A stretch of 64,000 nt of DNA from Fibrobacterota bacterium (GTDB taxonomy: Bacteria > Fibrobacterota > Fibrobacteria > UBA11236): NCBI GenBank assembly GCA_028287465.1, contig JAQBPO010000066.1, positions 1-64,000 of the forward strand, written 5' to 3'. Of this stretch, positions 12,451 to 26,479 are shown one piece after another (position 1 is the stretch's first letter; each line of letters opens with the position of its first letter). Position numbers and translations under genes: made by a program. The notes beneath the pieces were generated by a model that saw only the letters and a list, made by a program, of their open reading frames with translations, did no database searches and was not told where the DNA came from.

Positions 12451-13125
12451 ATGGACAAAGACATATTCATAATCCGGTTGAATCCGGTATGTTGCCTCAC
12501 CTTGGCGGGTCTCGCCATCGATATGGCGGCATTCCTGATCCTGCTCGACCTGCCCGCCATGGGCCGGGGCGCCAGTTTCACCTTGACCGGAGGTCCCGCC
12601 CCGCGATTCTTCCTGGCGGTCGGCCTGATGTACCTGGGCATGCTGACCGATGCCTTCGACGGAATCATCGCCAGGCGGTTCGGCTGGGATGGCGAATTCG
12701 GGCGCTATCTCGACGGGTTCGTCGATGTCTTCAATTACCTGGTTCTCCCCAATCTGCTCTTGTGGCGCCTGGGTTTCAGCGGGCCCGCCGCGGGAATGGT
12801 GATGACGGCCATGATCGCCGCCGGCGTCCTCAGGCTTTCGAAGTTCAACATGATCGGGAACATCAAGGTGGAAGGCGCAAGCAAATACCTCGGCCTTCCG
12901 GTATTCTGGTCGCAACTGTATTTCTTCCCCCTTTACCTGGTCTTCGCCCTGGTTCCCGGGCGCGCGTTCGCCATCGCCACCGGCGCGGTATGGCTCGCCA
13001 TGTCCTTCGCCTTCCTTTACAACCGGCCCTTCTTCAAACCCAAGAACACCTGGCTCATCGCGGGAGTCACCCTTTCCCTGAGCGGGGCCGGATTCGCCCT
13101 GTTCCTGCTGGGGTTGCATCCGTGA
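12451..13125 (+). CDS. CDP-alcohol phosphatidyltransferase family protein (PssA-like)
   Basis: An integral membrane enzyme of 224 aa that joins a CDP-activated lipid to an alcohol (or the reverse). The complete family signature is present: Asp70-Gly71, Ala74-Arg75, Gly84, Asp88 and Asp92, the Mg-binding and catalytic residues. Hydrophobic helices flank it. The overall layout is closest to phosphatidylserine synthase, but the alcohol cannot be read from sequence. It is the first of three phospholipid-type genes joined by overlaps: its TGA overlaps the GTG of the kinase-like gene. A TATAAT at 12309-12314, inside the end of the radical SAM gene, might serve as promoter. Confidence 0.85.
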   Translation: MDKDIFIIRLNPVCCLTLAGLAIDMAAFLILLDLPAMGRGASFTLTGGPAPRFFLAVGLMYLGMLTDAFDGIIARRFGWDGEFGRYLDGFVDVFNYLVLPNLLLWRLGFSGPAAGMVMTAMIAAGVLRLSKFNMIGNIKVEGASKYLGLPVFWSQLYFFPLYLVFALVPGRAFAIATGAVWLAMSFAFLYNRPFFKPKNTWLIAGVTLSLSGAGFALFLLGLHP

Positions 13126-14051
13126 ACACGCTTTGCCTTTTCAATCCCCGCGCCGGAAGGTTCGGGAGGCGGATGCTGGAACAGGCCTTCGCCGGGCGGA
13201 GCGCTTCCGGGCTCGATTTCTGGGGCCGGGTGGAATACCGATCCCTCGCGGAACCCGAAGGCCGCGCCTGGGCCGGGAGCCTGGACGGTTTCGGCCGCGT
13301 AGCCGTATTCGGCGGGGACGGAACGGTCCATCACGCCATACAGCCTCTCGCCTTCGGCGATCGGGAGCTGTGCGTATTCCCCGCCGGGACCGCCAATGAC
13401 CTGACCTGCGCCATCGGCCTGCCCCTGGATCTGGATCGGAACCTCGACCTGTTCGAGAAGGGCAAGACGGTCGCGTATGATACGATCTCCGTGAACGGAA
13501 GGCATGTCATCACCGGCGGCGGTTTCGGGCTCGGCTACCGGGCCGCGGCGACCGCGAATACCCTGCGTTCGGGTCCCCTGGGCGGATTCTTCCGCAAAGG
13601 CCTGCGCGCGAAAATCTACCTCGTGACCCTGGCCTGGCACGGCCTGGTCGCCCCGCCCCGCAAGGTGGGCTATACCATGACCTTGGACGGGACCGCCTCG
13701 GCGGGAGAGACCCAGTCGATCCTGTTCTGCAACCAGGCCTTGATGGGAAAGCGCGTCCTCATCGCCCCCGGAACCTCGGCCGTGGACGGACGCTTCCACC
13801 TTGTCCGCTTCCGCAACCGCAATGCGGCGGGCATCCTCCAAACCCTCGGGCATCTCAAGGCCGGGTCTCCCCGGGCGGAAACCATGCTGGATCGAGCGGA
13901 AGCGTCGTTGGCCGAAATCACCTTTTCCGAACCCGTTCCGGCCTACGGGGACGGGGAGGAATTCCCTCCTGAAACCAAATGGATCCTCCGCTGCAACCGC
14001 GGGGCAATCCGTCTCCGGGTCCCGGCGGATTTCGGGGGCGCCCATGCTTGA
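13122..14051 (+). CDS. Diacylglycerol kinase catalytic-domain protein
   Basis: A 309-residue lipid kinase of the DagK/YegS/sphingosine-kinase fold. The nucleotide loop GGDGT is at residues 64-68 and PAGTAND at 87-93; the C-terminal beta-sandwich follows. It would phosphorylate a lipid hydroxyl such as diacylglycerol, an isoprenoid glycerol or a long-chain base. The GTG at 13122 overlaps the previous stop and gives exactly the family N-terminus with its NPRAG motif, although the frame is open far upstream. The gene is wedged between a CDP-alcohol transferase and a CDP-lipid synthetase, so it probably makes the phospholipid intermediate that the next enzyme activates. Confidence 0.87.
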   Translation: MNTLCLFNPRAGRFGRRMLEQAFAGRSASGLDFWGRVEYRSLAEPEGRAWAGSLDGFGRVAVFGGDGTVHHAIQPLAFGDRELCVFPAGTANDLTCAIGLPLDLDRNLDLFEKGKTVAYDTISVNGRHVITGGGFGLGYRAAATANTLRSGPLGGFFRKGLRAKIYLVTLAWHGLVAPPRKVGYTMTLDGTASAGETQSILFCNQALMGKRVLIAPGTSAVDGRFHLVRFRNRNAAGILQTLGHLKAGSPRAETMLDRAEASLAEITFSEPVPAYGDGEEFPPETKWILRCNRGAIRLRVPADFGGAHA

Positions 14052-14892
14052 CAGGGCCCCCGTCGGCGCGGATTTCCTGTGGCTGATGGGTTTCTACGCG
14101 GTTTGCCTCGCGGCCGGTTTCGCCCTCAAGGCCGCGGCGCGGAGGCCGGGGCGGGCGGCATCTGCAACCGGCGCTTCCTTGGACGGGCGCGGCCCGGAAG
14201 GACTCCCGAAAGGTCCCGGCATCGCCCGGAAGTTCAAGGTCTTCTTCCTGTTCCAGACCGCGCTCCTGGCCTGCTCCTTCTGGTCCGTTCCCGTTCTTGC
14301 GCTCTTCTTCCTGGTCCTGTTCATCCTTTCCGCCTGGGAAATAGGGCTCCTTCACCGCCGCGTTACGTACCCTACGGGTTACCGGTTCCGCCCGCTCCAG
14401 GCTTACGGCCTGCTGGCCTTGTTCGGATTCTCCCTGGCCTGCTTCCTGCTTTCCGCGGCGCGGATCTCGGGGTGCGCCTTGCCCCCCGGGGGTACCCCAT
14501 TCCTCGCCTTCACCTTCCTGCTCATCGCGGTCGCGGACGGATACGCCCAGATCACGGGGCAAATCCTGGGCGGGCCCAGGATCGTGCCGCGCATCAGTCC
14601 CGGCAAGACCTGGAGCGGGTTCGTGGGAGGCATGGCCTTTTGCGCCCTGGCCGCCTGGCTCGGGAACCGGTTCCGTTTCGGGTTCATGGGGGACGGCGCG
14701 GCGGTCCTCTACGGCGCATCGGCGGGAGTCCTGGCCTTTCTCGGGGATATCACGGCGTCATGGGTCAAACGGCGCATGGGCATCAAGGACTTCTCCGATC
14801 TGCTGGGCCCGCAAGGCGGCGTCCTCGACCGGGGGGACAGTCTGATCTGGTTGGGACCGGCCTTGTGGCTGAGCATTCGGCTGGGCCTTTGA
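14044..14892 (+). CDS. Phosphatidate cytidylyltransferase-like protein (CdsA family)
   Basis: A polytopic membrane protein of 282 aa that would convert a phosphatidic acid-type lipid plus CTP to a CDP-lipid. The C-terminal signature is recognisable: SWVKRRMGIKDFSDLLG followed by QGGVLDRGDS. The residue normally His in the HGG part of the motif is Gln here, so activity or substrate may differ from housekeeping CdsA. The ATG overlaps the kinase stop by 8 bases. Together the three genes could form a lipid-OH, lipid-P, CDP-lipid, head-group series. A housekeeping cdsA would be expected elsewhere in the genome; it is not in this window. Confidence 0.8.
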   Translation: MLDRAPVGADFLWLMGFYAVCLAAGFALKAAARRPGRAASATGASLDGRGPEGLPKGPGIARKFKVFFLFQTALLACSFWSVPVLALFFLVLFILSAWEIGLLHRRVTYPTGYRFRPLQAYGLLALFGFSLACFLLSAARISGCALPPGGTPFLAFTFLLIAVADGYAQITGQILGGPRIVPRISPGKTWSGFVGGMAFCALAAWLGNRFRFGFMGDGAAVLYGASAGVLAFLGDITASWVKRRMGIKDFSDLLGPQGGVLDRGDSLIWLGPALWLSIRLGL

Positions 14893-14959
14893 CTATCGAG
14901 CGCATTTTCGTTTTTGGCCGAGGCCGCGGCGGCGCGGACCGGGAAATAGGAGGTTTGCC

Positions 14960-16270
14960 ATGTCGGTGAACAGCGGATTCTTCAAGCAACTCAGGGAACG
15001 GCTCCTCAAAGGCGCCACGGTGGAACAGTTGGCGGAGCGGATCAGGCCGCGCCTGCCCTCCGAGGCGCCCTTGGAGGCGACCCTGCCGTCCGCGAAGGAT
15101 ATCGCGCGCAACGGGGTCGGCATCGTGGCGGAATCCCTGCGCCAGCAGGGCAAGGAGATGCCCGTGGTGACGGGGCGCCAGGCCTTGGACCATGGTCCGG
15201 AAATCTACGAACGCAATATCGAGAATTACATCGGTCTCTGCGCCATTCCCGTGGGGGCCGCGGGGCCCCTGCGTATCAATGGCTTCCATGCCCATGGGGA
15301 TTTCCTGATCCCTTTGGCCACGACCGAGGCCGCCCTGGTGGCCTCTTTCCACCGCGGCTGCAAGGCGCTCACCCTTTCCGGAGGAGTGGCCGCCACCTGC
15401 CTGGTGGACAAGATGGGACGCGCTCCCATCTTCGTCTTCAAGGACATGTCGGACGCTTTGCGCTTCTGCGCCTGGCTGGGCACGGTGACGGAGGAGATCC
15501 AGAAGGTCGCCGAATCCACCAGCCGGTTCGCCAGGCTGGTGGACTACAACGTTTCCCTGAACGGCCAGGACGTGGTCCTCCACCTGGAGTTCACCACCGG
15601 GGACGCTGCGGGGCAGAACATGGTCACCTTGGCCGCGGACGCGGCCTGCCATTACATCCTGGCGGCCTGCCCGATTCCCGTGGTCCGCTGGTACATCGAG
15701 TCCAACATGTCCGGGGACAAGAAGGCCAATGCCATGGCCTTCATCCAGACGCGCGGGAAACGCGTCACGGCCGAAGCGCGCATTCCCGCGGAGATATGCC
15801 GGGACGTGCTCAAGGTCAAGCCGCAGGAAATCTTCGAGGCCTGGAAGATATCCATGGTCTCCAGCCTGAAATCCGGATCCATCGGAAGCCAGAGCCATTT
15901 CGCCAACGGGCTCACCGCCCTCTATATCGCCACCGGCCAGGACGTGGCCTGCATCGCCGAGGCGGCCGTGGGCATGACGACGTATTCCGTGGATGAGGAC
16001 GGCGCCCTATTGGTGAACGTCTGCCTGCCCAACCTCGTGGTGGGCACGGTCGGCGGGGGCACCGGCCTCCCGACCCAGAGGGAATGCCTGGAGTTGCTCG
16101 GATGCGCCGGACCGGGCGGCGCGCACAAGTTCGCCGAGATCGCCGGCGCGCTGACCATCGCAGGGGAGATTTCCATCACCGCCGCGATCGCCGCGGGCCA
16201 TTTCACCGAGGCCCACCGCAAGCTGGCCCGGGGTCCCGCCGCCGCGGGAACCGGGATGAAACCCGCCTGA
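14960..16270 (+). CDS. Hydroxymethylglutaryl-CoA reductase, class I type
   Basis: Reduces HMG-CoA to mevalonate with NADPH. The 436-residue soluble protein has the main conserved blocks: ENYIGLCAIPVG (CoA/HMG site), TTEAALVAS, SGDKKANAMA carrying the catalytic Asp-Lys pair, the NADPH loop GTVGGGTGL, and the C-terminal His at about 419 in HFTEAHRKL. It lacks membrane helices. The AGGAGG ribosome site is excellent. The stop overlaps the ATG of the GNAT-like gene by one base, tying it to the downstream cluster. Because the window also holds ispG of the MEP pathway, this reductase may serve a dedicated biosynthesis. No other mevalonate-pathway gene is in view. Confidence 0.93.
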   Translation: MSVNSGFFKQLRERLLKGATVEQLAERIRPRLPSEAPLEATLPSAKDIARNGVGIVAESLRQQGKEMPVVTGRQALDHGPEIYERNIENYIGLCAIPVGAAGPLRINGFHAHGDFLIPLATTEAALVASFHRGCKALTLSGGVAATCLVDKMGRAPIFVFKDMSDALRFCAWLGTVTEEIQKVAESTSRFARLVDYNVSLNGQDVVLHLEFTTGDAAGQNMVTLAADAACHYILAACPIPVVRWYIESNMSGDKKANAMAFIQTRGKRVTAEARIPAEICRDVLKVKPQEIFEAWKISMVSSLKSGSIGSQSHFANGLTALYIATGQDVACIAEAAVGMTTYSVDEDGALLVNVCLPNLVVGTVGGGTGLPTQRECLELLGCAGPGGAHKFAEIAGALTIAGEISITAAIAAGHFTEAHRKLARGPAAAGTGMKPA

Positions 16271-17280
16271 TGGAACCCCGCCTCGGAAGCCTGACCCAGA
16301 CCGAGTTCACCGTAGCCGGCCGCCTTCTGCTGGCGGAGCTATGGGATGCGGGCCAGGAAAAATACGAATCCTTCTGGCTGGGTCCGGCGGCGCCGCCCCG
16401 GGCCAAGGGCGAACTCCATCTTTTCGGCTGGATCACCGGATCGGGAATCCGGGCCCGCTTGGCCGTCTACAATCCCTCCGCGGGCGACTGCCTGTTCATG
16501 CTCTATGCCCGCGCCGCCGATGCGGCTCCCGCCGAGATCGCCGCATTCCTCCTGGCCGTGAAAGCGGATTGCAAGTCGCGCGGCATGGGTTCCCTGACGG
16601 GGCCGATGCAATTCTCGACCTGGCATCCCTATCGCTTCATCAGCAAGATGGGTCGATTGCCCTATTTTCCCGGGGAGCAACGGATCCCCACGGCTTATCA
16701 TGGGGATTTCCTCGCGGCGGGGTTCTCGGATCTGGCGGAGTACCAGAGCATCCACGTGCGCGGATACGTCAAGGCCTGGCTCATAGGCATGGCCCTCGGC
16801 GTTAAGCGCGGCCTGCAGGGCATGGAGGTGAAGACCTTCGGTTCCGAGGACATGCTGGCCATGTTGCCGGAACTCTACCGGCTTTCCTGCGATATCTTCA
16901 AGGACAATTTCCTTTACGAGCATATCGCCTACGGGGATTTCCTGGAGCTTTCCTCAGTGTCCGCGTCTTCCGAAGCGGTCCTGATCATGCTGCTCCGCAA
17001 CGGCACGCCGGCCGCGTTCGCCTACAGTTACGGAATCGGCCGTTATCCTACGGCGTCTTCCGGACGGACCGCGGTGCTGAAGACCCTGGGGGTGGCGCCG
17101 GCCTTCCGGGGGCGCGGCCTGGGGTATTCCGTGAGTTACCTGACCCACCTGCACTGGAAGGAACGCGGGGCCCGCAACGTCATCCACGCCTATATGAAGA
17201 GCGATAATCGCTCCCGGGCCATGTCCGGCCATTTCGGGAAGAGCATCCGATCCTATGTCCTCATGAAGGGGAGCCTCTAG
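16270..17280 (+). CDS. GNAT-like acyltransferase of unknown function
   Basis: A 336-residue protein whose C-terminal third carries the acetyl-CoA-binding motif of GNAT enzymes: LGVAPAFRGRGLGYS near residue 274, followed by a helix and a typical end strand. The N-terminal part (about 1-200) has segments such as GPMQFSTWHPYRF reminiscent of the tandem GNAT proteins found beside lipid genes. No membrane segment. The frame is open upstream, but the ATG at 16270 overlaps the HMG-CoA reductase stop and gives the shortest sensible protein. In this operon it could acylate the product or a carrier, which is inference. Confidence 0.68.
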   Translation: MEPRLGSLTQTEFTVAGRLLLAELWDAGQEKYESFWLGPAAPPRAKGELHLFGWITGSGIRARLAVYNPSAGDCLFMLYARAADAAPAEIAAFLLAVKADCKSRGMGSLTGPMQFSTWHPYRFISKMGRLPYFPGEQRIPTAYHGDFLAAGFSDLAEYQSIHVRGYVKAWLIGMALGVKRGLQGMEVKTFGSEDMLAMLPELYRLSCDIFKDNFLYEHIAYGDFLELSSVSASSEAVLIMLLRNGTPAAFAYSYGIGRYPTASSGRTAVLKTLGVAPAFRGRGLGYSVSYLTHLHWKERGARNVIHAYMKSDNRSRAMSGHFGKSIRSYVLMKGSL

Positions 17281-17282
17281 CC

Positions 17283-18989
17283 TTGGAAAAGACGGGGTCC
17301 GTGAATATCGCCTTGGAAGTGGACGCCCGCGTCCGCTCCCGGCCGGATTCCCCGGCCCTGGTCGAATGGGACGCCCGCGGCCGGGAACTGCGCCTTAGCT
17401 TCGGCGGATTCGGATCGCGCACGGCCGCCCTGGCCGCGGGACTCGCCAAAGAGGGCATTGCCAAAGGCGATCGGGTCCTTTTGCTGGTTCCCATGGGCAT
17501 CGATCTCTACGTCGCGATCCTCGCGGTCATCCGCCTGGGCGCGGTATGCGTCTTCGCGGATCCCTACATGGGTCCCAAGCGTTTCGATGCCTGCTGCGCG
17601 GCCGTCAGGCCCAAGGCCTTCATCGGCATCCCGAAGGGCCACCTGTTCCGCCTGATGTGCCCCAATCTGCGAAAGGTCCCGGTCCAGATCGCTACTCATG
17701 GCCTCCCGCGCTGGTTGGCCCTCGGCATGGGGCGCATGATCCGCGGTGCGGAGGGCGTTCATTCCGCGATCGCCGCCGTCGAGGCCGGGGACCCCGCCCT
17801 GATCAGTTTCACCACCGGCAGTTCCGGCGCGCCCAAGGGAAGCAATCGCACCCACGGGTTCCTGCGCCGCCAATTGGAGGCCCTGGACGATCCCCGCAAA
17901 ACCGCATGCGCATCGGACTTCCCGGGCTTTCCCATCCTTCCCCTCGAAAACCTTGCCCGGGGGCGCGTCTCCTTCATCCCGCGCCTCAAGCCGGGAAAGG
18001 TAGCCGAGGCGGGCGGGTCCATCGTACGGCAATTGCAGGCATGGAAACCGGAAATGATGTCCGGGTCCCCGGCCTATCTGGAATCGGTCGCCGATGCGGC
18101 CTTGGCCAAGGGAACGACCCTGGGTTCGGTGCGGATGCTCTTCACGGGCGGCGCTCCCATCACCGCCAAGGCCCTGGAAAAACTCACCCGCGTCTGGACC
18201 TCCGCCGAGATCGCGGTCGTATATGGATCCACGGAAGCGGAACCCGTCGCCAGCCTGGATGCGGCGGAGTTGCTGCGGGAGTGCCGTCCCTTATCCAGGC
18301 AAGGGCTGGGTTTCTGCGTCGGCTATCCGGTGGCGTCCTTGCGCGTGCTCATCCTTCCCCTCGATTTCACGGCCTCGGAGTGCCGGGACCTGGCAGCGGT
18401 CGGCATTCCTTCCGGGAGGATGGGGGAGATCGCCGTTTGCGGGCCCCATGTGAACACGGAATATTGGAACAATGCGGCGGGCGAGCGCGCCAACAAGATC
18501 AAGACCCCGGACGGCATCTGGCACCGCATGGGCGACGCGGGGTACTTCGACGTCAAGGGACGGTTGTGGGTGACGGGCCGGGCGCATGCCGCCATGGCAA
18601 ACCCTCATTACCGGCCGCTTCAGGCGGGGGCGGGCCTTTCACCTTCCGGTTGGGAATGGCTTTTCCCCTACCAGGCGGAGTGCGTGGTGGACGAAATGCC
18701 CAAGGTCAGGAAATCCGCCTATCTGGAAGCCATGGGGGCCCATTGGGTGGTGGTGGAAACCGCCAGCGGGGAAGTCCGGGATCCCGGCCTGGCTGCGGAA
18801 ATCCGATCCGCCCTGGCGGATTTCCCCGTCGCCGGCGTGCGCTTCATCGACCGCCTGCCCGTCGATCCCCGGCATAATTCGAAGGTGGAATACGCCAAGG
18901 TAAGGTCGCTCCTGGAAGCCCAGACGGCCCGTTCCGGCCGTTCCCGCGAAAACGGCCAGGAAGGCCTGGTCATGGAGATACGCGCATGA
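17283..18989 (+). CDS. AMP-dependent synthetase/ligase, OleC-like
   Basis: An ANL-superfamily adenylating enzyme of 568 aa. The phosphate-binding signature FTTGSSGAPKG starts about residue 176, a YGSTEAE motif lies near 320, and a GD motif follows in MGDAGYFD. The C-terminal lysine region reads LPVDPRHNSK, with Lys534; this PVDxRHNxK form is typical of OleC-type enzymes, which close beta-hydroxy acids to beta-lactones, rather than of the usual PxxxxGK ligases. It may therefore activate a long or branched beta-hydroxy acid. The start is TTG, three bases after the previous stop, with GGGGAG upstream. Its stop overlaps the UbiA start (ATGA). Confidence 0.82.
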   Translation: MEKTGSVNIALEVDARVRSRPDSPALVEWDARGRELRLSFGGFGSRTAALAAGLAKEGIAKGDRVLLLVPMGIDLYVAILAVIRLGAVCVFADPYMGPKRFDACCAAVRPKAFIGIPKGHLFRLMCPNLRKVPVQIATHGLPRWLALGMGRMIRGAEGVHSAIAAVEAGDPALISFTTGSSGAPKGSNRTHGFLRRQLEALDDPRKTACASDFPGFPILPLENLARGRVSFIPRLKPGKVAEAGGSIVRQLQAWKPEMMSGSPAYLESVADAALAKGTTLGSVRMLFTGGAPITAKALEKLTRVWTSAEIAVVYGSTEAEPVASLDAAELLRECRPLSRQGLGFCVGYPVASLRVLILPLDFTASECRDLAAVGIPSGRMGEIAVCGPHVNTEYWNNAAGERANKIKTPDGIWHRMGDAGYFDVKGRLWVTGRAHAAMANPHYRPLQAGAGLSPSGWEWLFPYQAECVVDEMPKVRKSAYLEAMGAHWVVVETASGEVRDPGLAAEIRSALADFPVAGVRFIDRLPVDPRHNSKVEYAKVRSLLEAQTARSGRSRENGQEGLVMEIRA

Positions 18990-19909
18990 AATCCTTTCCG
19001 GCCGCGGCTTTCGCCTCCGCTTACAGGGCCTACCTTGCTGAGAGGTTCCCGCCCGCCCTCAACGGACTGGCCATTTTCCTACTGTATTCCTGCACCCTGA
19101 CGGCCGCCCAGCGGATGCTTGGTCTCGGCCATGCCTCCTGGCCCGCGTACCTTTGCGGTTACCTGTGGGTCCTGGGCGTTTTCTACCACTTGCGCGTATT
19201 GGACGATCTCAAGGACCGTAACGACGACGTCAAGGCCTACCCCGGGCGCGTGCTTTCCCGCGGCCTCGTCACCTATACGCAATTGGCCTGGACCGGCCTG
19301 ATCGCCGTACTGGCCGAGACCGCCATCGCATCCGCCTTCGGTCCGAAGATCCTGGCCTTGCATCTGGGCACCCTCGCCTACTCCCTGCTCATGTACAAGG
19401 AATTCTTCGTAAGGGATTGGCTGAAGGCCCACCTGTTCCTGTACGGGGTGTCGCACATGCTCATCCTCGCCTTCGTCGATTTCACCATCCTGCAGATGGC
19501 GTCACCCTCCGGCGGCCTGGTGCGCATCCCGGGGTTCTTCCTGTTCGCCTTCCTGGGTTTCTCCATGACCTTCTCCCTGGAGGTCAGCCGCAAGATCCGC
19601 GTGGCCGCGGTCGAACGTCCGGAGGTGGATACCTATTCCAAGGTAATCGGCATCGGGCCATCCCTATTCCTGGTCCTGGCATTCCAGGCAGCCGTGATGA
19701 TACTCGCCTGGTTCCTGCGCGCGCATCTGGGACTTCCCCTGTGGTTCCATGGCGCCGCCTTGGGGACCTGGCTCTTCGTCGCTTCGGTCTATGCCGCCTG
19801 GGGCCGGCGGTTGACGGAGCCCCATAGCCGGAAGCTGGACAAGGTGGCCTCCCTGTTCTACCTGCAATTCTACCTTTGCCTGCTGGGGATCCTGTTATGG
19901 CGCAAATGA
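18986..19909 (+). CDS. UbiA-family prenyltransferase
   Basis: An intramembrane prenyltransferase of 307 aa with about eight hydrophobic helices. The first Asp-rich motif is clear: LDDLKDRNDD with Asp73/74, 77 and 80/81, followed by PGRVLSRGLVT. The second conserved loop is less canonical (LEVSRKIR around 210, then EVDTYSK). Relatives attach a polyprenyl chain to an aromatic ring, a quinone precursor or, in digeranylgeranylglyceryl phosphate synthases, to a glycerol phosphate. The acceptor cannot be read. It is coupled to both neighbours by overlapping stop and start codons. With HMG-CoA reductase upstream, a prenylated product is the natural inference. Confidence 0.83.
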   Translation: MKSFPAAAFASAYRAYLAERFPPALNGLAIFLLYSCTLTAAQRMLGLGHASWPAYLCGYLWVLGVFYHLRVLDDLKDRNDDVKAYPGRVLSRGLVTYTQLAWTGLIAVLAETAIASAFGPKILALHLGTLAYSLLMYKEFFVRDWLKAHLFLYGVSHMLILAFVDFTILQMASPSGGLVRIPGFFLFAFLGFSMTFSLEVSRKIRVAAVERPEVDTYSKVIGIGPSLFLVLAFQAAVMILAWFLRAHLGLPLWFHGAALGTWLFVASVYAAWGRRLTEPHSRKLDKVASLFYLQFYLCLLGILLWRK

Positions 19910-22596
19910 AGCATGCTGCGGAAATCGGAGGCAAGGCGGAGAACCTTTCGATCCTCTCCCGTCTCCCGCACGTTACCGTGCCGCCTTTCCGCGTCATCGA
20001 TGCCTCCTGGTTCCGGGAGGCCGTCGCGGAAGCGGCCGGGCGCGGGATCGAAGGCCTGAATCCCGGTCCCCGGTTCCTGTCCCATCTCGACGGGCTTTTG
20101 GAAGGATTGCGCGATGGCCGCCTCGCCTTCCTGTCGGTGCGGTCTTCCGCCGTAGGCGAGGATTCCGCCGAAGCCTCCTTCGCCGGGCAATTCGACACCG
20201 TTCTCAACGTGCCCATCCACGATCGCGAAGCCGTGGCCGCGGCCGTATTGCGATGCTGGTCCTCCGCGTTCGGCGAACGCGTCCAGGCCTACCGCCGGAA
20301 ATTCAACCTGCCGGCCCCGGCCATGGCCGTGGTATTGCAGACCATGATCCCGGCGGACGCCGCCGGCGTCTGCTTCACCTTGAATCCGGTCACCGGGGAC
20401 ACGGGGGAGATGGTCGTCTCGGCCTCCTGGGGGCTAGGGGAGGGAATCGTATCCGGGCGCTATGAGGGGGACCATTACGCGCTCTCCCGGGAAACGGGCC
20501 TCTATACCGAGCGCATCGCCTCCAAGCCGGAACGCATCGTGGCCATCCACGCCATCGCGGCTGATGCCCCGGTCGGCAACTCCGGAAAGGGGGGGACACG
20601 CGAGGAATCCGTTCCCGAGACCCTCAGGGAAATCCCTTGCCTGAAGCCCGCCCATCTCCAGGCCTTGAAACGCGGCGCGCTCGCCATCGAAGCCCGCTAT
20701 GGCCAGCCCTTGGACCTGGAATTCGCCTTCCTCGGCGACTCCCTGTATTTCCTTCAGGCCCGCCCCGTGACTTCCGCCTCTCCCGCCGTCCGCGCCGCAT
20801 GGGGGCGCAAGATCCTCTGGGACAATTCCAATATCGTCGAAAGCTATAACGGCCTGACCTCGCCCCTGACCTTCTCCTTCATCGCCTTCGCCTACCAGGA
20901 GGTATACGAACAGTTCGGCCGCATGCTGGGCATCCGCCGCCGCCTGCACGACGAGAACCAGATGGTGATGCGGAACTACCTGGGCCTGATCCGGGGACGG
21001 GTGTATTACAACCTCATGACGTGGTACACGTCCCTGGCCAACATGCCGTTCTTCCGCTTTACGGGAGAGGCGATGGAAGCCATGATGGGCGTGCGCCAGG
21101 GCTTGCCGATAAAGAACCTGGAAGTGCCCAAGGCAGGGCTTAAGGGGACTTACGATCGTTTCCGCCTCGCCACCCTGGCCCTGTGGAACGTATGGCGCGC
21201 TCCAGCGCGCGTACGGGAATTCCAGGCCCGCTTCGCGGAAAAGTTCGCCCTCTATGCGGCTACGCCCTGGGACCAGCTTTCCCCTCAAAGGCTTATCGCC
21301 CTATATGAAGAGATGACCCTGGTCTTCCTGAAACGCTGGCAGGCGCCCATCCTCGCGGACACCCTGGCCATGGTGTTCTACAAAGCCTTATCCTCCCTGT
21401 GCCTGAAATGGGTGGCCCCGGGGGATCCGGGTTTCCAGAATGACCTGCTGGCCAACCAGGGCCAGGTGGAAAGCACCGAACCCACGCGCCTCATCCTGGA
21501 ATGCTTCCGGGACATCCGCGGCGACTCCGTCCTAGCGGGCATCCTGCGGGATACCCCGGCCGATCGGACCCTCGCCGCGCTCAAGGCATCGGGCGCCGAG
21601 GGCGCGCGCGGTCTTCTGGCCTGGCTGGACGGATACCTCGAACTGTACGGCAGCCGGTCCATGAACGAGCTCAAGCTGGAAGTTCCGACCCTTGAGGAAG
21701 ATCCCTCCTTCATCTTCGGCACCTTGAAGAACTATTTCTCGGCTCCTGAGCTGGCCCTATCGGCCTTGGGGCATTCCGCCGCGGGCGGACGCGAGGCCGC
21801 CGAAGCAAAAGTGGACGCCGCCCTGAAGGGCCGCCCCCTGCGCAAATGGCTGTTCGCCTGGGTGCTCAAGAACGCGGTCCGCCACATCCGCAATCGCGAG
21901 GCCATGCGCCTGGCCCGGTCGCGCATCTACGGCCTCGTGCGCAAATTGGCGCTCGCCTATGGCCGCAACCTGGAAGCCGCCGGCATCCTGTCCCGCCGGG
22001 ACGATGTCTTCTTCCTTTCCATCCAGGAATTGCAAGCCTTCGCGGAAGGCCGCAGCCTGACCCTGGATTTGCGCGCCCTGGCCGACCTGCGGAAAGGGGA
22101 ATACGCCGCCTTCGCCCTGGAGGCGGAACCGGCGGAACGCTTCCATACCATCGGGCTCCCGTATTACCGTCAGGAGTACGCGGCTGAAGGAGCCACGGCA
22201 AACCTGGACGGGAATCTCCTCAAGGGCCAGTCCTGCTGCGCCGGCGTGCGTCGCGGGAAGGTCCGGGTCATCCGCGTGCCCGAGGACGATTTGCGCCTGT
22301 CCGGGGAGATCCTGGTCGCGCCCCGCACCGATCCGGGATGGATCCCGCTCTTCCCGTCCATCAGCGCGCTCCTGATTGAAAAAGGATCGATGCTTTCCCA
22401 CTCGGCCATCGTGGCCCGGGAAATGGGCATACCCACCATAGTCGGCATCGAGAACCTGACCCAGAGGCTCAAGGACGGCGATGAAGTGGAAGTGGACGCC
22501 GGAGCAGGCACGGTCCTGATCCTGTCGCAAGGGGGAGCCGGCGGCGCCTCCGCCGATGCCGTAACCGGTCCCCTCCGCGCGGAGTCAGCGGCATGA
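19897..22596 (+). CDS. PEP synthase/rifampicin phosphotransferase-like dikinase
   Basis: An 899-residue protein with a PPDK-type N-terminal ATP-grasp domain (about 1-310, including SSAVGEDSAEASFAGQ and a QARPVTS end motif), a long middle region of about 430 residues, and a C-terminal swivelling phosphohistidine domain with His835 in LSHSAIVARE. It has no pyruvate/PEP TIM barrel after the His domain. That order matches rifampicin phosphotransferases and related dikinases that phosphorylate a small molecule with the beta-phosphate of ATP. Start chosen at 19897 with GGGGA eight bases upstream, overlapping the UbiA stop; 19876 and 19906 are alternatives. It may phosphorylate an intermediate of the cluster product. 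Confidence 0.8.
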   Translation: MAQMKHAAEIGGKAENLSILSRLPHVTVPPFRVIDASWFREAVAEAAGRGIEGLNPGPRFLSHLDGLLEGLRDGRLAFLSVRSSAVGEDSAEASFAGQFDTVLNVPIHDREAVAAAVLRCWSSAFGERVQAYRRKFNLPAPAMAVVLQTMIPADAAGVCFTLNPVTGDTGEMVVSASWGLGEGIVSGRYEGDHYALSRETGLYTERIASKPERIVAIHAIAADAPVGNSGKGGTREESVPETLREIPCLKPAHLQALKRGALAIEARYGQPLDLEFAFLGDSLYFLQARPVTSASPAVRAAWGRKILWDNSNIVESYNGLTSPLTFSFIAFAYQEVYEQFGRMLGIRRRLHDENQMVMRNYLGLIRGRVYYNLMTWYTSLANMPFFRFTGEAMEAMMGVRQGLPIKNLEVPKAGLKGTYDRFRLATLALWNVWRAPARVREFQARFAEKFALYAATPWDQLSPQRLIALYEEMTLVFLKRWQAPILADTLAMVFYKALSSLCLKWVAPGDPGFQNDLLANQGQVESTEPTRLILECFRDIRGDSVLAGILRDTPADRTLAALKASGAEGARGLLAWLDGYLELYGSRSMNELKLEVPTLEEDPSFIFGTLKNYFSAPELALSALGHSAAGGREAAEAKVDAALKGRPLRKWLFAWVLKNAVRHIRNREAMRLARSRIYGLVRKLALAYGRNLEAAGILSRRDDVFFLSIQELQAFAEGRSLTLDLRALADLRKGEYAAFALEAEPAERFHTIGLPYYRQEYAAEGATANLDGNLLKGQSCCAGVRRGKVRVIRVPEDDLRLSGEILVAPRTDPGWIPLFPSISALLIEKGSMLSHSAIVAREMGIPTIVGIENLTQRLKDGDEVEVDAGAGTVLILSQGGAGGASADAVTGPLRAESAA

Positions 22597-23567
22597 AGCG
22601 GCGCGACATCGGCGCCCTGGACGTGCTGAACCGCAAAGCGGTCGAAAACGCGTACGACTTCGAAGACCTCGACTGGTCGCGTCCGGTCGATCGATCCAAG
22701 CCCTGGTCTCCCGAACATATCGCGCCTTTATTCTACCTGCCTTCCTACGCCAAATTCACGCCGGAGGAAAAGCGCCGTTACAACCAGCTGTTCTCCATGG
22801 GCGTTTGCGAGCAGTTCATCTGGCTGGAAGAGCACCTCCTGGTCAATACCTTGCGCAAGGTGGTCCAGCGATCCGACCCGCCCGCGCCCTTGAAAGAGGC
22901 CCTGGGTCATTTCATAGCGGAAGAGCTCAAGCATACCCGGATGTTCTGGCGCATGCTGGAGAAATCCGAGCCCGGTTGGTACCCCACCCGCAAATTCCGC
23001 TTGTACAACATTTCCGCCCTGCAACAGGCGGTGCTGGACCTGGTGCTCAAGTTGCCGAACGTGTTCCTGATCTGGATCTGGACGGCCGTCTTCTTCGAAG
23101 AGCGGACGGTGGATTATTGCCGGCATTACCTCGAAGCCCGCAAACGGGACCCCGAAGCCGTGGACGCGACCTATACCCAGGTGCATGAATACCATTTCAA
23201 GGATGAGCTTCGCCATTACCAGTTGGATCAGCATCTGCTCGCCTGGATGTACGATCCCCAGCCCCGGTGGAAAAAACGGCTCGCGGCGCGGATGTTCCGC
23301 TCCCTCATGCGGAGCTATGTCTTTCCGAACCGGACCAGCAGGCGCGTCCTGGAAGTCCTCGCCGGGGAATTCCCTCGCTTGCGCGCCGAGGTCCTGCCCG
23401 CCCTGCTGAAAGAACTCCCGGATATCGGCCGCTCCCGGGCCTTCCATCGCATGGCCTTCAGCAAGGACTCGGTCCCCAAGACCATGGCCCTCTTCGCGGA
23501 ATACCCTGAACTGGACGGCTTGTGGAACCTGTTCCTGGAGATCACCAAGGAAGAAGCATCCGGATGA
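22593..23567 (+). CDS. AurF-like ferritin-fold diiron oxygenase
   Basis: A 324-residue, mostly helical protein with the spacing of a carboxylate-bridged diiron centre: Glu79/80 on one helix, Glu111 and His114 in EELKH, Glu169/170 in FFEE, and His201, Glu205 and His208 in HFKDELRH. The repeated ExxH pairs plus an extra His suggest the AurF/CmlI family of N-oxygenases, or a related metalloenzyme. No signal peptide. Start and stop overlap: its ATG overlaps the dikinase TGA. It could oxidise an amine or a chain carbon of the cluster product. Function is inferred from ligands and fold only. Confidence 0.7.
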   Translation: MKRRDIGALDVLNRKAVENAYDFEDLDWSRPVDRSKPWSPEHIAPLFYLPSYAKFTPEEKRRYNQLFSMGVCEQFIWLEEHLLVNTLRKVVQRSDPPAPLKEALGHFIAEELKHTRMFWRMLEKSEPGWYPTRKFRLYNISALQQAVLDLVLKLPNVFLIWIWTAVFFEERTVDYCRHYLEARKRDPEAVDATYTQVHEYHFKDELRHYQLDQHLLAWMYDPQPRWKKRLAARMFRSLMRSYVFPNRTSRRVLEVLAGEFPRLRAEVLPALLKELPDIGRSRAFHRMAFSKDSVPKTMALFAEYPELDGLWNLFLEITKEEASG

Positions 23568-23598
23568 AAAGAAACCGCCGCATGAACGGGGAATCGGA

Positions 23599-24180
23599 AT
23601 GAGGAACGGATCCAAGGCCGCCCTGCTTACGGCGGGCGCGCTGGCGGCCGTAGCGGCGGCAATGATCGCCTTCAGCCCTTATAAACGGCAACCGGGCTTC
23701 GGCTACCGCGTGATGCTGCATACCGTGGATATCGCGGCGCCGGCGGATGCGGTCTTCCGCTTTCTGGGGAATTCGGGCAATGCAGGGAAGTGGTCCGTTT
23801 TCGTGGATCACATCACTCCGCTCAATGCGGACAGCATTCGCGATGGCCTGCCGGGTTCCCGCCGGCGCTGTTTCTGCAAACGCGATGAAACCGGCCGCCG
23901 GTGGGACGAAACCATCACCGAGGTCGTGCCCGGGAGGAAACGCCGGCTCGCCTTGTACGACTTCGTGGGATTCACCGCCGCTTCCGATTCCCTCGCCACG
24001 GAACAGATCTATGAAAGCACGGAAGGCGGGGGATGCCGGCTGACCTTCACCGTATTCTTCACGAAAGCCGAACCCGCTTGGACGGAAACCCTGGAGATGT
24101 ACCTGGCGGCCTATACCATCAAAAGCATCTTCGCCCGCAACATGGCCAACATCAAACGTCTCAACGAGACCGGAGGCTGA
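23599..24180 (+). CDS. Membrane-anchored SRPBCC (START-like) protein
   Basis: A 193-residue protein with one N-terminal hydrophobic helix (about 8-25) and then a SRPBCC/polyketide-cyclase-like domain: the VDIAAPADAVFRFL opening, a WSVFV turn, and the long C-terminal helix are characteristic. Members bind hydrophobic ligands, either as cyclases/aromatases or as lipid carriers. It has a GGGGAAT-type ribosome site and starts 31 bases after the diiron gene. Between an oxygenase and an MMPL exporter, a role in handling a lipid-like intermediate at the membrane is plausible. Confidence 0.68.
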   Translation: MRNGSKAALLTAGALAAVAAAMIAFSPYKRQPGFGYRVMLHTVDIAAPADAVFRFLGNSGNAGKWSVFVDHITPLNADSIRDGLPGSRRRCFCKRDETGRRWDETITEVVPGRKRRLALYDFVGFTAASDSLATEQIYESTEGGGCRLTFTVFFTKAEPAWTETLEMYLAAYTIKSIFARNMANIKRLNETGG

Positions 24181-24181
24181 G

Positions 24182-26479
24182 ATGGCCGCACGCCGCATTA
24201 GCAGGTTCGCCTTGCTGGGGATCCTCGCCGCGAGGCGCCCTTGGGTCTTCCTCGCGGCCTGGACCGTGATCGCCCTGTTCGGCGCGGGCGGCGCCAAGAA
24301 GGCTCCCGCCCTCCTGTTCAGCGGTTCCGGCGACATCCCCCGCAGTCCTTCCCTGCGCGCGGACAGCCTCCTGCGCGAGAACTTCGACAATCCCTATTCC
24401 CAATTGCTGGTGGTGGCCATCCGCGGGCTTCCGGAAGGGGAGGCCATGGACATGGGGGATCCGGACTCCGCCCGGACCGCCTTTCTCGGCCGGTTGGACG
24501 GGGCCCTATCGCACCTGCCGCAAGTGCGCGCGGTGATGACTCCGGCGAATGTCCTGGACAAGCGTCTCCTGCCCGCCCCAGGCGAGGGGATGCTGATCAT
24601 GATCGGCGTGAAGGCCGCTACCGTCCGGGACGCGGAACAGGCGATCCCCGTGGTCAGGAAGGCCGTCGACGGCGTGCTTTCCCTGGAGAAGCCGCGATAC
24701 CCGGATCTCCGCTGGGCCGTGACGGGACGATCCGCCCTGACCTACGATCTGAACCTGTTCAACGCCAAGGATACCGCGGAGGCGGAAGTGCGCGTCATCC
24801 CCTTGACCCTGATCATCCTCCTCTTCGCCTTCGGTTCCGTGGTGGCCGCGGGAGTTCCCGTGCTCCTGGGGATCCTGTCGACCACGGTGAGCCTCGGCGT
24901 GATCTTCCTGATGGCGCGGCACTGGGTCTTTTCGAACCTGATCCAGAACGTCTCCAGCATGATCGGCCTCGCCGTGGGCATCGATTACAGCCTCATCATC
25001 ATCCACCGTTATCGCGAGGCCCTGGCCGGATCGGCCAAGGCTTCCGGCGGGCCCGCCACCCGGGACCAGCGGGCTACCTCTTTGGCGGAAAGCATGGGGA
25101 CGGCGGGCAAGGCCGTATTCTTCAGCGGCCTGGCGGTCATGATCGGGTTGGGAGGCATGCTCTTCACGCCCTTGATGGAAACCCGATCCATCGGCTGGGG
25201 CGGTTGCATCGTCGTGCTCGTTTCCATGGCCGCCGCCCTGACCTTCCTGCCCGCGCTCCTGATAGTATTGGGACCGGCCCTGGAATGGCCTAGGGTCCTT
25301 TCCAGCCGCTTCGGCGGCGGAAAACGGGGGAGGCGCTGGGAAGCCTGGTCGGAATGGGTCATGCGGCACGCTCCTTTGTGCGCCCTCCTGGGCCTGGCCG
25401 CCATCGCCTTGCTTTCGTATCCGGGACGCTTTACCCGCTTCGGATTCCCGGAAGGGCCGTTCATCCCCAAGGAGCTCGAATTCTCCAAGGGATACCTGAT
25501 GCTCGATTCCATGGGCATGCAAGGCCTGGTGCGGCCCATCAATATCATCCTCACCTCCGAGGACGGCCCCGCCCTCACCGCCGGGAAAGTCGACTCCCTC
25601 TACGCCTTTTCCGCGCGCCTCCGCAAGGACCCGGCCGTGGCCCGCGTATTCGGTCCCGTGGATCTTTCGGATTCCTGGCCCGTGGAGAAGTATCGGGCCC
25701 TCTACGCGGACATGGACGATGCGATGGAGAAAGCGCCGTTCGTGAAGGAGTTCTTCCTGAGCCGGGACGGGCGTTCCCTCTTGCTGCAGGCCATGCTCAA
25801 GCCCGAGGTGACCCTGGAGCAGGAAAAGATCCTGGCGCGCGAGATCCCCGCCTGGCTCAACCTCCCCGGCACGCGCATGGACCTGGGAGGCCAGGCGGTC
25901 TACTACAATGATTTCGACAAGGCCATGATCGCCTCCTACCTGCCCTGCATCGTGTTCGTCTTGGCCGTTACCATGGCCGCCCTGCTGCTTTTCTTCCGGT
26001 CCCCGCTGGTTTCCTTGAAGGCGATCGTCATGAACGCCATGTCCGTCCTGGCCGGCTACGGCGCCGTTGTCTTCGTCTTCCAACTTGGCCATGGCCATGC
26101 CCTGTTCGGGACTCCCGGACCCGCCGAAGTCGTCCCCCTCACCATTCCCTTGATGCTGTTCTGCATCCTGTTCGGCCTGAGCATGGACTATGAGGTTTTC
26201 CTGCTCAGCCGCATCCGCGAAGGGTTCCTGGAATCCGGGGACAACGTGAAATCCGTTTCGGAAGGCCTTGCGGCCACGGGACCCATGATCACCAATGCCG
26301 CCTTGATCATGGCGGCGGTTTTCGGCGCTTTCGCTTTCGCCCGGGTGGTGGTGGTCCAGATGCTGGGTCTGGGCCTGGCCGTCGCGGTCCTGGCGGACGC
26401 GACCTTGATCCGCGTTCTCCTTGTCCCGGCGTTCATGAAGATGGCCGGCCGGTGGAATTGGTGGCCGACTAAGCGATAA
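24182..26479 (+). CDS. MMPL/RND-family lipid exporter
   Basis: A 765-residue inner-membrane transporter with the two-fold RND layout: one helix (about 20-40), a soluble domain of about 150 residues, five helices, then the same pattern again (helix about 390, second soluble domain, five final helices). It is the MMPL/hopanoid-transporter size rather than the 1000+ aa AcrB size. Conserved membrane segments such as GLAVGIDYSLIIIHRYREA and LSMDYEVFLLSRIREG contain the Asp residues of the proton relay. It follows the SRPBCC gene by one base and closes the operon. It probably exports the cluster's lipid-like product. Confidence 0.85.
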   Translation: MAARRISRFALLGILAARRPWVFLAAWTVIALFGAGGAKKAPALLFSGSGDIPRSPSLRADSLLRENFDNPYSQLLVVAIRGLPEGEAMDMGDPDSARTAFLGRLDGALSHLPQVRAVMTPANVLDKRLLPAPGEGMLIMIGVKAATVRDAEQAIPVVRKAVDGVLSLEKPRYPDLRWAVTGRSALTYDLNLFNAKDTAEAEVRVIPLTLIILLFAFGSVVAAGVPVLLGILSTTVSLGVIFLMARHWVFSNLIQNVSSMIGLAVGIDYSLIIIHRYREALAGSAKASGGPATRDQRATSLAESMGTAGKAVFFSGLAVMIGLGGMLFTPLMETRSIGWGGCIVVLVSMAAALTFLPALLIVLGPALEWPRVLSSRFGGGKRGRRWEAWSEWVMRHAPLCALLGLAAIALLSYPGRFTRFGFPEGPFIPKELEFSKGYLMLDSMGMQGLVRPINIILTSEDGPALTAGKVDSLYAFSARLRKDPAVARVFGPVDLSDSWPVEKYRALYADMDDAMEKAPFVKEFFLSRDGRSLLLQAMLKPEVTLEQEKILAREIPAWLNLPGTRMDLGGQAVYYNDFDKAMIASYLPCIVFVLAVTMAALLLFFRSPLVSLKAIVMNAMSVLAGYGAVVFVFQLGHGHALFGTPGPAEVVPLTIPLMLFCILFGLSMDYEVFLLSRIREGFLESGDNVKSVSEGLAATGPMITNAALIMAAVFGAFAFARVVVVQMLGLGLAVAVLADATLIRVLLVPAFMKMAGRWNWWPTKR

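Follow-up and report, generated by a model that had tools for sequence, protein, structure and literature searches.

A conserved 11-gene cluster in Fibrobacterota

What does a run of 11 closely packed genes for lipid enzymes make in a Fibrobacterota bacterium, and does the apparent 3-hydroxy-3-methylglutaryl-coenzyme A (HMG-CoA) reductase in its midst feed it with isoprenoids? The run (g1 to g11, Table 1) occupies positions 12451-26479 of the window, the 64,000-nt stretch of contig JAQBPO010000066.1 analyzed here. The source genome is 5.8 Mb in size and 98% complete, and its class also contains a large genus with 3-4 Mb genomes. The answer that we favor, with moderate confidence, is that its product is an exported polar lipid built from a fatty alcohol. 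This lipid would most likely be an alkyl-ether glycerolipid, or something closely analogous, whose head group can be exchanged.

Recomputed coordinates and overlaps agreed with an earlier note on this DNA, which had described 11 packed plus-strand genes. Neighboring open reading frames overlapped by 1-13 bases at 6 junctions (g1/g2, 4; g2/g3, 8; g4/g5, 1; g6/g7, 4; g7/g8, 13; and g8/g9, 4 bases), with gaps of 67 (g3/g4), 2 (g5/g6), 31 (g9/g10), and 1 (g10/g11) bases at the others. The grouping exceeds chance, with all 11 genes found in the same order in 2 congeneric genomes (G003 and G005) at 44-85% protein identity; the cluster suspected in the note is thus a real one, and its neighbors in relatives are not random. 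The flanking radical-SAM and phosphatase genes of the window also occur in G003, and neither is near the cluster in G005. Because the flanks of G005 differ and just 14 bases separate its g3 from g4, we take the unit to be g1-g11, which resolves the doubt over whether the first 3 genes belong. The cluster is accessory rather than housekeeping, since 3 of the 5 other genomes of the genus (G001, G002, and G004) lack both an AurF and an HMG-CoA reductase (HMGR) homologue; the sole-housekeeping-copy explanation that the note had allowed for therefore does not hold for g4 and g9. Across the phylum, this AurF was found in 3 of 168 genomes and a PF00368 (HMGR-family) protein in 7, of which 6 sit in a cluster of this kind; the remaining protein, from G099, is a distant HMGR.

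The HMGR-like protein is most likely a fatty acyl-CoA reductase

The earlier note had named g4 an HMGR and read the cluster as one for a prenylated lipid; on such a reading, g4 would supply mevalonate for isoprenoid synthesis. Both g4 and its cluster homologues keep the catalytic residues of class-I HMGR (E559, K691, D767, and H866), with 1 ambiguous residue, at position 692, in locus L120. The HMG-binding pocket residues Ser684 and Lys735 of mevalonate-pathway HMGR are absent from g4. All 16 cluster homologues had Glu at human S684 and Phe at L862, and at position 735 Ser or Ala was found in 15, Phe in 1, and Lys in none, although this last feature is weaker as the K735 column may shift by 1 residue to a nearby Lys or Arg in some members. 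Human and archaeal HMGR have S/K/L at these 3 positions. FcrA (Grossi et al. 2025, PMC11948995), a member of the class-I HMGR family that acts as a fatty acyl-CoA reductase, is recognized by a genome lacking the remaining mevalonate enzymes and by replacement of Ser684 with Glu, of the HMG-binding Lys (numbered 795 in that paper and taken here as K735) with a small residue, and of Leu862 with a bulky one, and published FcrA reduces long-chain acyl-CoA, is insensitive to statins, and is unable to reduce HMG-CoA (PMC11948995). The catalytic residues and all 3 pocket changes of FcrA recur in g4, and HMG-CoA synthase is likewise missing from its genome.

HMG-CoA synthase, the mevalonate enzyme that our search of the carriers covered, was found in none of the 16 carriers searched, and the positive controls were found. 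IspH of the methylerythritol phosphate (MEP) pathway was present in all 4 carriers examined (G000, G003, G005, and G061). The FcrA step is strongly supported at the sequence level, and g4 is most likely a fatty-alcohol-forming enzyme. The pocket signature, the absence of HMG-CoA synthase, and the presence of IspH together make an alkyl lipid likelier than a mevalonate-fed prenyl lipid, and the mevalonate reading of g4 gave way accordingly.

Two further groups of homologues were observed outside such clusters. On Vibrio/Photobacterium replicons, such as a Vibrio fluvialis plasmid (NZ_AP028132.1; L139:9968-11230), an FcrA-like gene approximately 60% identical to cluster FcrA stands alone and carries the annotation HMG-CoA reductase. 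Gammaproteobacterial class-I HMGR homologues at 7 loci (L103-L108 and L110) have S684 but W862 and no K735, and are possibly another reductase subgroup.

A core gene set shared across phyla

Genes for FcrA, a UbiA-superfamily protein, and a phosphoenolpyruvate synthase (PEPS)-like protein, in most cases joined by genes for an acyl ligase and a GNAT protein, were found together in Gammaproteobacteria, on an alphaproteobacterial plasmid, and in other Fibrobacterota. Approximately half of the 73 PF00368-positive genomes in the sampled class were inspected, and the cluster counts are lower bounds. One metagenome-assembled genome of Candidatus Muproteobacteria (QKEI01000062) carried AurF, FcrA, UbiA, PEPS-like, RND/MMPL, DUF3419, membrane protein, GNAT, and acyl ligase genes in a single run, and HMGR-seeded searches recovered the set FcrA-UbiA-PEPS-DUF3419-membrane protein-GNAT-ligase in G479 (very probably Sulfurifustis variabilis skN76), G565, G458, G252, G233, and G438, the ligase of the last lying past the contig end. 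The same set was located on a 137 kb plasmid of Roseinatronobacter sp. S2 (Alphaproteobacteria), where FcrA spans the record start, and in the Fibrobacterota genomes G067 and G093, rearranged in the latter and with no recognized GNAT. G376 and G082 had partial, contig-limited copies of the core. UbiA directly adjoined PEPS in every locus where both genes were available. An MMPL/RND pump was identified in the window type, in G061, and partly in G067. The distant AurF homologues in Gammaproteobacteria lie outside clusters of this kind, and a phage collection searched with g4 gave no match.

In a PF00368 tree, the DUF3419-type Fibrobacterota sequences nested within proteobacterial ones, a pattern compatible with horizontal transfer, and the window type formed a separate, well-supported branch of 3; deeper branching had moderate support only. 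Two unusual open frames were also seen. In G233, PEPS-like and DUF3419 sequences share an 1184-aa frame (L120:5118-8672, minus strand) in a locus with 43 ambiguous bases, an apparent natural fusion that would tie both steps together. In G557, part of an FcrA runs into MurD where the contig ends (L063:1-1197, minus strand), probably as an assembly chimera.

Exchangeable head-group modules

Three modules alternate around the constant core. The window type has diacylglycerol kinase, CdsA, and cytidine diphosphate (CDP)-alcohol transferase genes. The type seen most often carries DUF3419 (BtaA family), which is absent from the window cluster and was matched in a homologous cluster by PF11899 at 2e-68; the cluster DUF3419 proteins are 24-30% identical to rhizobial ones. 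Betaine lipid synthesis by BtaA/BtaB thus shares the DUF3419 protein with these homologous clusters, but no BtaB was recognized in them. The third type combines phosphatidylserine (PS) synthase, PS decarboxylase, and CarS. In G560, a CDP-alcohol transferase, PS decarboxylase, and CarS-like protein accompany an FcrA fused to a kinase-like domain; G407 has the same FcrA fusion and a CDP-alcohol transferase/CarS fusion, and the L062 cluster has CarS-like and archaetidylserine-synthase-like genes. All the enzymes of these modules take as substrate an alcohol of the diacylglycerol type or the corresponding phosphate, which is our main reason for calling the product a polar lipid. The module swap is also the strongest support for the earlier suggestion of a lipid with a head group like that of phospholipids, exported by an MMPL pump.

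FcrA with a C-terminal kinase-like domain was observed at L062:7581-10355 (minus strand; EcKL/APH) and L111:9216-11738 (plus strand), and the L062 protein is also extended N-terminally, perhaps by the long-chain alkyl carrier domain already described in the literature. A membrane protein of approximately 440 aa encoded between DUF3419 and GNAT was considered as a phytol/dolichol kinase by motif, an assignment that neither Pfam nor a CdsA profile comparison supported.

Proposed pathway

Family calls were based on a Pfam search of all cluster genes and on NCBIfam, and Pfam backed the family name of every protein except g7 (Table 1).

Table 1. Genes of the window cluster, with predicted functions and the matches behind them (AMP, adenosine monophosphate; CTP, cytidine triphosphate; AF2, AlphaFold2)
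Gene	Predicted function	Position	Strand	Basis
g1	PS/archaetidylserine-synthase-like CDP-alcohol phosphatidyltransferase (scores under the equivalog cut-offs)	12451..13125	+	PF01066 2e-12
g2	Diacylglycerol/lipid kinase, YegS type	13122..14051	+	PF00781 3e-13, PF19279 1e-9
g3	CdsA-like CTP:phosphatidate cytidylyltransferase	14044..14892	+	PF01148 1e-33
g4	FcrA-type fatty acyl-CoA reductase (annotation: class-I HMG-CoA reductase)	14960..16270	+	PF00368 1.6e-110
g5	Tandem GNAT-fold acyltransferase	16270..17280	+	PF00583 5e-5, AF2, Foldseek
g6	AMP-forming acyl ligase, PRK09274/OleC-like	17283..18989	+	PF00501 9e-40
g7	UbiA-superfamily transferase	18986..19909	+	PRK13592 4e-11, AF2 fold
g8	PEP-synthase/rifampicin-phosphotransferase-like, putative alcohol (di)kinase	19897..22596	+	PF01326 1e-59, PF00391 1e-24
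g9	AurF-like diiron oxygenase	22593..23567	+	PF11583 2e-20
g10	SRPBCC lipid-binding protein, hydrophobic N-terminal segment	23599..24180	+	PF10604 3e-12
g11	MMPL/RND lipid exporter	24182..26479	+	PF03176 1e-72

We infer the substrates, the steps that follow FcrA from phosphorylation to export, and the product structure as follows. The acyl ligase g6 (PRK09274, 366 bits; OleC, 229 bits), whose motifs are invariant in 10 loci, would activate a fatty acid, and g4 would reduce the acyl-CoA to a fatty alcohol. In g8, the catalytic-type (phosphohistidine-type) His835 is invariant in 12 loci, and the nearest PDB entries are the 5fbs/5hv1-5hv2 group, which we take to be rifampicin phosphotransferases; the simplest guess from both is that g8 phosphorylates an alcohol, probably the fatty alcohol of g4, by a rifampicin-phosphotransferase/PEP-synthase-type reaction. 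The next protein, g7, gave no match to the Pfam UbiA model, though its relatives did, and is assigned to the UbiA superfamily by its modeled fold (AF2 predicted local distance difference test [pLDDT] score 91) and by the first Asp-rich motif, which does not vary among 13 loci. It may condense the activated chain with a glycerol-type acceptor or prenylate an acceptor; the donor may be a fatty alcohol in activated form or else a prenyl diphosphate of the ordinary kind. A chain could then be oxidized by g9, in which E80, E111, H114, E170, H201, E205, and H208 have the spacing of the 7-ligand diiron site of AurF.

The lipid alcohol would be phosphorylated by g2 (start codon GTG at 13122), CDP-activated by g3, and linked to a head group derived from serine or another alcohol by g1, which reads DxxDGxxAR(x8)GxxxDxxxD and scored 59.9 bits against the TIGR00473 pssA cut-off of 107; elsewhere, this step would fall to a BtaA-like DUF3419 enzyme or to the PS synthase/PS decarboxylase/CarS module. 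The GNAT protein g5 might acylate the amine of the head group, or a hydroxyl. Its model (pLDDT 80) matched tandem GNATs in general by Foldseek, and we dropped the attempt to read a substrate from the fold. Finally, g10 and g11 would extract and export the lipid. MMPL pumps export specialized lipids, and g11 belongs to the same family as the MmpL3/HpnN-type exporters but falls far below both equivalog cut-offs (MmpL3, 196 bits vs 1400).

Possibly, though less likely than not, these steps form a new route to ether-linked membrane lipids, in which the FcrA-made alcohol is phosphorylated by the PEPS-like enzyme, UbiA then forms the alkyl ether, and phospho-, homoserine/betaine-, or ethanolamine-type modules complete the lipid. 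Alkyl-ether routes through AGPS or ElbD (cited in PMC11948995) likewise run from acid activation through reduction to a fatty alcohol to a polar glycerolipid; by Pfam search of all its genes, however, the window cluster has neither AGPS nor ElbD and has UbiA and the PEPS-like enzyme instead. G237 has a differently built candidate locus for alkyl-ether lipids, in which an AGPS-like FAD oxidase with a fused acyltransferase (L126:283-2751, minus strand) lies near FcrA, CDP-alcohol transferase, and CdsA genes. This adjacency ties the FcrA family independently to ether lipids, in agreement with the FcrA authors, who suggested such a role via PlsC-like and AGPS genes (PMC11948995).

Several points weigh against the fatty-alcohol-derived polar lipid. 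Within the cluster, FcrA is the only family whose chemistry is backed by experiment, and FcrA homologues of 55-60% identity also occur as solitary genes in Vibrio and Photobacterium. MMPL, SRPBCC, and AurF are missing from most homologous clusters. OleC-like ligases may form beta-lactones rather than acyl-CoA, PEPS-like proteins include the prodigiosin-type ligases PigC and RedH, and the usual donors of UbiA enzymes are allylic prenyl diphosphates, a saturated alkyl phosphate being unusual. The best Foldseek folds for g7, those of digeranylgeranylglyceryl phosphate (DGGGP) synthase (7bpu/6m31), favor our proposal in that this enzyme type forms ether bonds, but at 12% identity the match does not separate substrates and was dropped as a guide to them; the DGGGP synthase equivalog models scored a relative far below cut-off.

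Alternative products

One alternative is a hybrid that overlaps our proposal and that we regard as possible, if somewhat unlikely: FcrA makes the fatty alcohol and UbiA draws on a standard prenyl diphosphate, so that the polar lipid would combine prenyl with alkyl or acyl chains. The conserved Asp-rich donor motif, the MEP pathway, and the DGGGP synthase-like fold all agree with it, as does PcrB, a geranylgeranylglyceryl phosphate (GGGP) synthase homologue found in full in 5 of 6 Fibrobacterota carriers, including the genome of the window. The clusters themselves, however, had no recognized prenyl synthase, PcrB, or geranylgeranyl reductase, gammaproteobacterial carriers had no PcrB or a partial one, and the constant UbiA-PEPS adjacency suggests that PEPS makes the substrate of UbiA. 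For the prenyl lipid envisaged in the earlier note, a mevalonate feed is not supported and a fatty-alcohol-derived product is likelier, though UbiA may use a prenyl donor. The full-length PcrB homologue lies at G000:C100:116197-116880, with counterparts in G003, G005, G067, and G093.

A small-molecule natural product, assembled by a PigC/RedH-type ligase with the OleC-like ligase, AurF, and GNAT proteins and exported by MMPL, is doubtful. PigC and RedH models matched the PEPS proteins at 310-365 bits, and AurF is an N-oxygenase family, but the PRK06241 PEPS models fitted better, the nearest structures are those of the 5fbs/5hv1 group, AurF is absent from most clusters, and 3 alternative polar-lipid modules are hard to reconcile with a soluble product.

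A lipid in which UbiA attaches isoprenoid derived from mevalonate made by g4 is very improbable. PF00368 membership, the intact catalytic residues, and the UbiA gene speak for it, and MEP-derived prenyl donors are available in the 4 carriers with IspH; such donors, however, need no HMGR, and the pocket residues and genome content led us to reject g4 as a mevalonate enzyme.

We give hardly any credence to an archaeal-type glycerol-1-phosphate diether pathway, as proposed for bacteria of the Fibrobacteres-Chlorobi-Bacteroidetes group (Villanueva et al. 2020, PMC7852524). The potential of that group, PcrB in Fibrobacterota carriers, and the L062 genes favor it, and the archaeal route of GGGP synthase, UbiA-family DGGGP synthase, CarS, and archaetidylserine synthase likewise has a UbiA-fold enzyme that precedes CDP activation and CDP-alcohol transfer. 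The core, however, includes a fatty acyl-CoA reductase and no GGGP synthase; G061, G458, G233, G438, G407, and G082 gave no PcrB match and 5 other carriers short partial ones, and the reading was dropped as PcrB is not common to all carriers. Wax-ester or free fatty-alcohol metabolism beside unrelated lipid genes is just as remote, for although FcrA serves wax esters in Halobacteriales (PMC11948995), the cluster genes include no wax synthase and their tight overlaps and synteny with head-group genes are conserved.

Significance

These are known enzyme families in a new combination, of the kind that serves bacterial polar or ether lipid synthesis. As the earlier note supposed, we found no description of this gene combination in the open-access literature, a search that left out most subscription papers and is not proof of absence; FcrA itself was linked to wax esters, a part in ether lipids being no more than suggested, and its paper does not mention a cluster of UbiA, PEPS, and head-group genes (PMC11948995). 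Database records that label FcrA genes as HMG-CoA reductase, as on the Vibrio fluvialis plasmid, mean that mevalonate capacity may be over-called. The pathway would be present in at least 3 bacterial classes of 2 phyla, including the cultured Sulfurifustis variabilis skN76 and Roseinatronobacter sp. S2, and its product is testable. If the proposal is true, FcrA, known since 2025, would gain a second, probably non-wax-ester role, and the orphan pair of UbiA and PEP-synthase-like proteins a likely one, while head-group modules exchanged around 1 core would help to explain how bacterial membrane lipids diversify.

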